Assembly (NCBI GenBank): GCA_013215915.1
Contig: JABSON010000006.1
Location: forward strand, 1-34,213
Direction of reading: 5' to 3'
DNA: 34,213 nt
DNA from: Campylobacteraceae bacterium
Lineage (GTDB): Bacteria > Campylobacterota > Campylobacteria > Campylobacterales > Arcobacteraceae
Below, in pieces: positions 14,174-14,283 of this stretch. The notes under the pieces were generated by a model that did not search any database, was not told where the DNA came from, and saw only the letters and a list, made by a program, of their open reading frames with translations. How positions within the stretch are numbered: the first letter of the stretch is position 1; every line of letters begins with the position of its first letter. The position numbers were made by a program, and so were the translations under genes.

Positions 14174-14283
14174 GCTTTATAGTATAAAGCACAAAAGCAT
14201 CCCTAAAGGATAAGCTTAAAATTCTTTCAAATTCTAAGCTTAGCCCTCAAGAGATGCTCGATTACATAGGGCCTAAGCCCTAT
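14174..14283 (-). promoter_or_regulatory. Structured rplL-rpoB intergenic RNA (likely processing or attenuation site)
   Basis: In the transcript three hairpins follow rplL. The first is a 7-bp stem at 14266-14283 (GGGC/GCCC core, loop of 4). The second is a long imperfect hairpin from 14196 to 14257. It has a 6-bp base (AGCATC with GATGCT), short 2- and 3-bp stretches separated by internal mismatches, a perfect 8-bp TAAGCTTA stem, and 4 more bp near a small loop. The third is a 7-bp stem at 14174-14190. None is followed by a good T run, so they are not simple terminators. E. coli has an attenuator and an RNase III cleavage site in the same spacer; by position and shape the long stem is a candidate counterpart. 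Confidence 0.6.

Follow-up and report, generated by a model that had tools for sequence, protein, structure and literature searches.

A conserved RNA hairpin element between rplL and rpoB in Arcobacteraceae, with a probable role in uncoupling RNA polymerase from stalk protein synthesis

Introduction

How many stalk proteins and few RNA polymerase subunits are obtained from one operon is understood mainly from Escherichia coli. An attenuator lies there between rplL and rpoB, and its rplL terminator is used as a stable terminator (PMC9765468). What occupies the same place in a distant bacterial group? The question is raised by a 34,213-nt stretch of DNA (hereafter the window) from an Arcobacteraceae MAG (GCA_013215915.1, contig JABSON010000006.1, positions 1 to 34,213), for which an initial annotation, made from the sequence alone, had proposed a long imperfect hairpin in the rplL–rpoB spacer (14174–14283) as a candidate RNase III or attenuation site. 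In the part of the open-licence literature that we surveyed, we found no description of an rplL–rpoB spacer element in Campylobacterota, and the accessible portion of PMC13236596 contains nothing on this spacer. Here we examine whether the structure is real, whether it is kept in relatives, and which function best accounts for it.

Results

The rplL–rpoB spacer of the window measures 167 nt (14144–14310, minus strand), as initially annotated. It separates rplL, which encodes L7/L12 and is the last gene before the element (14311–14676, minus strand; TIGR00855, 142.5 bits, above cut-off), from rpoB, which encodes the RNA polymerase beta subunit (9998–14143, minus strand; TIGR02013, 1730.9 bits, above cut-off) and is preceded by a Shine-Dalgarno-like AAGG (14150–14153, minus strand). 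The genes rplL, rplJ, rplA, rplK, nusG, and tuf were identified upstream of the spacer with NCBIfam models, so that the window holds the usual cluster of ribosomal protein and RNA polymerase genes. Over the start of RpoB (214 residues), the nearest named records are Arcobacteraceae MAGs, with 100% (L031) and 94% (L032) identity. The two genes flank the element in the same orientation, as in the case of the E. coli attenuator. The element does not correspond to an L10(L12)4 leader (rplJ leader), since it sits after rplL and not upstream of rplJ. Other spacers of the cluster, all on the minus strand, have hairpins of their own: one each in nusG–rplK (16632–16729), rplK–rplA (16114–16208), and rplA–rplJ (15258–15399), the last one at the expected place of the L10 leader, and a strong one of about 19 pairs between tRNA-Gly and tuf (19284–19506). 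The window also carries two tRNA-Trp genes (17523–17598 and 17757–17832) located 158 nt apart, with 0 differences over 76 bases and flanks that look unalike by eye.

The RNA of the spacer folds at −56.9 kcal/mol, compared with a mean of −31.3 ± 3.5 kcal/mol for shuffled sequences (z = −7.41), and none of 200 dinucleotide shuffles reached this energy; the interval 14174–14283 folded alone gives z = −7.38. This fold, with an energy beyond chance, contains the three hairpins initially proposed. H1 (14263–14286, minus strand; 10 pairs) is located 24 nt past the rplL stop codon. H2 (14195–14259, minus strand) is a long imperfect stem-loop, supported by both folding and covariation, and H3 (14173–14191, minus strand) is a small A+U-rich hairpin of 8 pairs (GCUUUAUA...UAUAAAGC); small hairpins resembling H3 were seen by eye, with no separate count, in many relatives. 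The long imperfect stem of the initial annotation is real and corresponds to H2, although it has about 29 pairs (G-U and closing A-U pairs included) and not 23, and the perfect segment attributed to it, TAAGCTTA, is present in both arms. With −34.9 kcal/mol, H2 is the strongest single hairpin among the window spacers examined (−22.2 kcal/mol in nusG–rplK and −29.1 kcal/mol upstream of tuf). The H2 core, GCATC...GATGC (14197–14257), is directly followed on the transcript by UUUUGUGCUUUA, that is, by a UUUU tract (14196–14193, minus strand) and then GUGCUUUA. Therefore, the earlier statement that there is no T run was mistaken, and this tail is found in most relatives. Pair number was dropped as a measure of hairpin strength, since A+T-rich shuffles often reach 17 pairs (66% of 760 shuffles form an unbranched hairpin of 17 pairs or more), which means that pair count alone cannot tell a hairpin from chance; we replaced it by the hairpin energy and by a stem score that penalizes mismatches and bulges.

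Our family set comprised 104 Arcobacteraceae genomes, five of which were set aside because they gave no rplL match. In all of the other 99, rplL adjoins rpoB with hairpins in between, and every one of the 19 genera with data has such hairpins. Per spacer, the longest hairpin has 17 to 30 pairs, with an H2 stem of only 17–19 pairs in genus g7. The hairpin energy has a median of −29.2 in these 99 genomes, against a median of −10.2 and a best value of −28.6 in shuffles, and is weaker than −15 in a single genome (G024). The best stem of the spacer outscores all 475 dinucleotide shuffles (25 per genus for 19 genera, which sets a mark of 15.5) in 90 of the 99 genomes, the weakest scores belonging to two genomes of genus g4 (11.0 and 14.0) and two of genus g7 (14.5). 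A Shine-Dalgarno-like word is present within the last 14 nt of 97 of the 99 spacers. H2 was anchored in 91 genomes, leaving out genus g8 (four genomes) and G014, G030, G098, and G116, and it spans 39–65 nt in them, with a median of 60 nt. A model of the canonical H2 (GCATCTTTGAAGG…CCTTTANGGATGC), built on 34 sequences (33 distinct ones out of 36, plus L116), matches 76 of the 104 genomes and 13 of the 20 genera at E-values up to 0.01; it does so at a single place per genome, any second match being the opposite strand of the same palindrome. Where data exist, the non-canonical genera retain a long hairpin whose sequence differs, and in genera g2, g5, g7, g12, g14, and g20 the stem sequence is largely replaced while pairing is kept. 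The fast-evolving genus g8 (G010, G027, G090, and G091), with genomes of 1.3–1.5 Mb and an rpoB start 55–60% identical to that of the window, still has at least two hairpins of 16 pairs or more in each spacer. Among the 72 canonical genomes, identity amounts to 94% for the 3' arm of H2 and to 92% for its 5' arm (the latter over 68 genomes, since g1 was left out because of a 1-nt insertion), compared with 63% at the four-fold sites of rpoB (32 sites in the first 150 codons), which implies that the sequence of H2 is maintained as well as its pairing. In searches against Rfam, only six tRNAs exceeded the gathering cut-off in the whole window, and the spacer, searched at E-values up to 1, gave nine weak matches, all of them below the cut-offs.

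Compensatory changes in relatives, proposed initially as the test of the structure, are indeed found in H2, both in arm swaps and in the canonical alignment. In 15 chosen representatives, aligned from the base of the stem, 95% of the first 16 basal positions of H2 pair between the arms of the same genome and 66% between swapped arms. This control is not clean, since the canonical genera have sequence in common and 56 of 210 swaps therefore attain the lowest value seen with own arms (0.81), and it favors the own-arm value because the H2 anchors were picked for pairing (at least 12 of 16). The values are 96% and 64%, respectively, for the 10 most different representatives (90 swaps). Between genera, two-sided changes that keep the pairing affect 15 of the 16 basal positions, position 3 being the sole exception. 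Within the canonical alignment (34 sequences), 98.2% of the cells are paired, a proportion that falls to 56–58% if the 3' arm is slid by one column. Five pairs in it show two-sided changes, a number reached by one of 500 shuffles, and such changes concern 15 cells compared with 3.1 in the shuffles, a control that ignores relatedness; 17 further pair types are unremarkable (113 of the 500 shuffles reach 17). For H1, taken as the best 8-pair hairpin before H2, at least 7 of the 8 pairs form in all 91 anchored spacers, with 38 different 5' arms, and with one genome for each of 18 genera its 8 positions are 100% paired with their own arms and 48% with swapped ones, bearing in mind that this hairpin was also picked for pairing. 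The hairpins are thus real and conserved, and constitute a strongly selected RNA element.

A stable hairpin followed by a U-tract on the transcript, the hallmark of intrinsic terminators, is what we observe in H2. The 91 anchored H2 are followed by TTTT (71 genomes), TTTTT (11), TTTTTT (7), or a single T (2), so that 89 have at least four T, and the first four T are invariant in the 72 canonical genomes. A terminator score modeled on that of d'Aubenton-Carafa is above 0 in 88 of the 91, where it is weak to moderate (0.5 to 31.6), and negative in three; with the same formula, H2 of the window obtains +18.2 and is weaker than the rplL terminator of E. coli (+43.7), the tail value being 4.65 in both. 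H1 has a terminator-like score in nine of the 91 genomes. A scan of the region for consensus terminators returned eight sites, neither H1 nor H2 among them. In genus g12 (four genomes) and G098, the long stem is present but no run of four T follows it, and in the four genomes of genus g8 only one hairpin of at least 10 pairs, in G090, directly precedes TTTT; such cases suit a processing stem better than a terminator. Two additional devices were considered and rejected. An antiterminator pairing of the 3' arm of H1 with the 5' arm of H2 is not supported, the longest run being 4.00 for own arms and 3.72 for swapped ones (18 genera). A mini-ORF starting at an ATG in the 3' arm of H2 was dropped by eye because other genomes have five T instead of four, which would put it out of frame; at a different site, the last three bases of the H2 arm, none of the 91 genomes has a start codon.

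Outside the family, we compared 71 distinct rplL–rpoB spacers (at one further locus, L133, no rpoB was obtained). A hairpin follows rplL in many of them, whereas others, for example L005, lack a notable one; 11 of the 71 pass the stem mark of 15.5. Sulfurovum-type spacers (L077, L080, L084, L090, L092, and others) carry a different, highly conserved hairpin, with a GGAGACATTTCATACCCTCC region followed by AATAGTTTCTTTGTGTATCTA. Several Helicobacter spacers (L083, L097, L100, L104–L106, and L108) have a hairpin, a T run, and then GCG, GCA, GTG, or GTA, tails similar to those of Arcobacteraceae and E. coli. The motif T3+GY(G/A), three or more T and then GY(G/A), was chosen after seeing the data; it directly follows the anchored H2 in 77 of 91 Arcobacteraceae and also the stem of the E. 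coli terminator. When any position in the spacer is allowed, the counts are 88 of 99 for Arcobacteraceae, 12 of 12 for Helicobacter, 21 of 23 for the Sulfurovum type, and 18 of 36 for the others, compared with 23% when the non-family spacers are shuffled by mononucleotides. Spacers of one lineage do not count as independent cases, and the spacers were sorted by record titles and sequence look, the look-alikes L085 and L088 being counted as "other".

Discussion

The reading that we favor, with a probability of about 0.58, is that H2 acts as a leaky intrinsic terminator that lowers the transcription of rpoBC and whose long stem may also be an RNase III substrate. RNA polymerase that has passed rplJ-rplL would meet a strong hairpin plus a U-tract (U4–6 in most genomes); part of it would stop there, so that rpoBC would be less transcribed than rplJL. 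The probable role of H1 is to shield the rplL message at its 3' end, and that of H3 to shield, at its 5' end, any rpoB message detached from rplL. A terminator would not require a stem as long as that of H2 (17–30 pairs), so that read-through transcripts are probably cut there by RNase III as well. The initial view that the lack of a T run rules out a simple terminator does not hold, because the run exists, and attenuation by a leaky terminator takes the lead. Termination alone does not explain, however, the strongly conserved sequence of the upper H2 stem. Weighing the U-tract and the terminator scores against the evidence for RNase III leads us to rank attenuation ahead of RNase III processing, whether the latter acts by itself or together with it.

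If RNase III processing were the main function, the full transcript would be cut in the long stem, yielding separate rplL and rpoBC messages with different lifetimes, and the U-tract would matter little. We regard this as a distinctly less probable explanation, although not a negligible one. The 29 pairs of H2 in the window exceed the approximately 20 expected of an RNase III site, and its median length in the family is near that of the 60-nt standard substrate R1.1, which the Campylobacter jejuni enzyme cleaves; this enzyme can also replace that of E. coli in rRNA and pnp processing (PMC3839596). The rplL–rpoB region of E. coli is itself named as an RNase III substrate (PMC2777011), and in Arcobacteraceae long stems persist where the U-tract has been lost (genus g12, G098, and most g8 hairpins). 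The U-tract is nevertheless kept better than a processing site needs, with its four T invariant in the 72 canonical genomes and present in 89 of 91. As for the enzyme, RNase III was detected in 43 of the 46 genomes searched, most of them Arcobacteraceae, but one of the three misses is the MAG of the window (G000), and in G002, of the same genus, rnc is split by stops over two matches (contig C20, 25828–26467). The miss in G000 resembles an assembly gap, since the matching contig, 97% identical to the related G003 over 2085 matched bases, stops about 670 nt short of the position that rnc occupies in G003.

A broader and rather speculative idea is that the spacers of Campylobacterota, and perhaps of other Proteobacteria, share a recurring module made of hairpin, hairpin, U-tract with GY(G/A), and small hairpin, in which a terminator, an RNase III substrate, and a polymerase pause would be fused in one hairpin. 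The idea stems from the distribution of the T3+GY(G/A) motif and is only a lead. The conserved TGYG presumably fits the pause consensus of RNA polymerase. Were this correct, the stem sequence would have been repeatedly replaced while structure, place, and tail persisted, and the availability or speed of the polymerase would set the amount of rpoBC that is read.

It is somewhat less likely still that H2 serves as a protein-binding site, for example for RNA polymerase with NusA or NusG or for a ribosomal protein, with the bound protein controlling rpoBC by a feedback loop. The identity of its arms in canonical genomes, far above that of the rpoB four-fold sites, and the mismatches that recur at the same places of the canonical stem would suit such a site, and for E. 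coli the title of Steward and Linn (1992), as cited in PMC1242208, mentions possible autogenous control at this attenuator. By contrast, the replacement of the stem sequence in six genera (g2, g5, g7, g12, g14, and g20) with pairing kept implies that no single sequence is recognized across the family, and the canonical model, found at one place per genome, gives no sign of a regulon.

An internal rpoBC promoter in the spacer, with a T run plus G upstream and TATA in the −10 box, would make the hairpins a by-product. In Campylobacterota, −10 boxes are typically preceded by T-rich stretches, and TTTTGYGCTTTATA is strongly conserved in canonical genomes. The E. coli operon has three promoters (PMC12083536). 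After TATA, however, the final T that a −10 box would have is not conserved, whereas the −10 sequence of C. jejuni and Helicobacter pylori is given as gnTAnaAT (PMC3847290). Moreover, none of the 60 promoter-like sites inspected, out of 74 in the region, is a minus-strand site in the spacer, the 74 sites represent no excess over shuffles (79.7), and a promoter leaves the covariation of H1 and H2 unexplained, all of which makes this explanation very improbable. Least credible is a functionless palindrome, either a neutral relic or a mobile one: although palindromic repeats are common in bacterial spacers, this explanation is already contradicted by the single place of the canonical H2 in each of 76 of 104 genomes, which speaks against a mobile or repeated element, by the absence of any match among 50,697 phage records, which speaks against a relation to phages, and by the compensatory changes, the 92–94% arm identity, and the presence of hairpins in all 19 genera with data.

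With H2 read as a leaky terminator and possible RNase III substrate, the closest counterpart is the E. coli attenuator. It lies between the same two genes and, in strain MG1655, small hairpins appear soon after rplL, then the terminator hairpin, which is followed by TTTTTGCGC and by a GCGC...GCGC stretch; by eye the latter could form a small hairpin, although the computed fold pairs this stretch otherwise. The order of these parts resembles the H1–H2–tail–H3 succession of the window. A conserved structure with compensatory changes does exist where E. coli has its attenuator and RNase III region, in line with the similar solution suggested by the initial annotation. That annotation also saw no primary similarity to E. 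coli. This stands for the stems, whose sequences are unlike by eye and therefore give no sign of homology, but not for the tail, because the UUUU(U)GYGC that follows H2 also occurs after the E. coli rplL terminator stem (TTTTTGCGCTG); this likeness is short, was noticed after the fact, and is too short to prove common descent. The dimensions differ as well: the E. coli spacer has 319 nt, about 250 of them after the terminator, whereas that of the window has 167 nt, and the E. coli terminator has a stem of 11 pairs and the higher score, whereas the stem of H2 is the longer one. In Arcobacteraceae, one long hairpin would have to serve both the terminator and the RNase III roles.

Comparable elements have been described elsewhere. 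A cyanobacterial rpoBC leader (cluster 245), located at the rpl/rpoBC junction, was likened by its authors to the E. coli attenuator (PMC1242208); it belongs to another phylum, and we liken it to ours by position alone. The Lacto-rpoB motif (RF01709) is listed as a structured RNA of Lactobacillales (PMC2864571), whose link to rpoB we take from its name, and it is not among the nine weak Rfam matches of the window spacer. The same logic applies in the archaeon Methanococcus maripaludis, where internal termination in operons that join ribosomal protein and polymerase genes holds the polymerase at a low level, according to an abstract that does not mention hairpins (PMC10450193). Since elements of E. 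coli, cyanobacteria, and Lactobacillales are known, the kind of element is known too. The Arcobacteraceae version is a lineage-specific design, with a single long, strongly conserved stem and a weak U-tract, and is a candidate for a new Rfam family.

As far as can be judged from sequence comparison, this element has a probable role in uncoupling rpoBC from rplJL. That a conserved, single-copy, and covarying element occurs at the same place in a distant group suggests that strong selection probably acts on this uncoupling in that group as well, and that Arcobacteraceae would meet the need to separate rplL from rpoB expression with a design different from that of E. coli.
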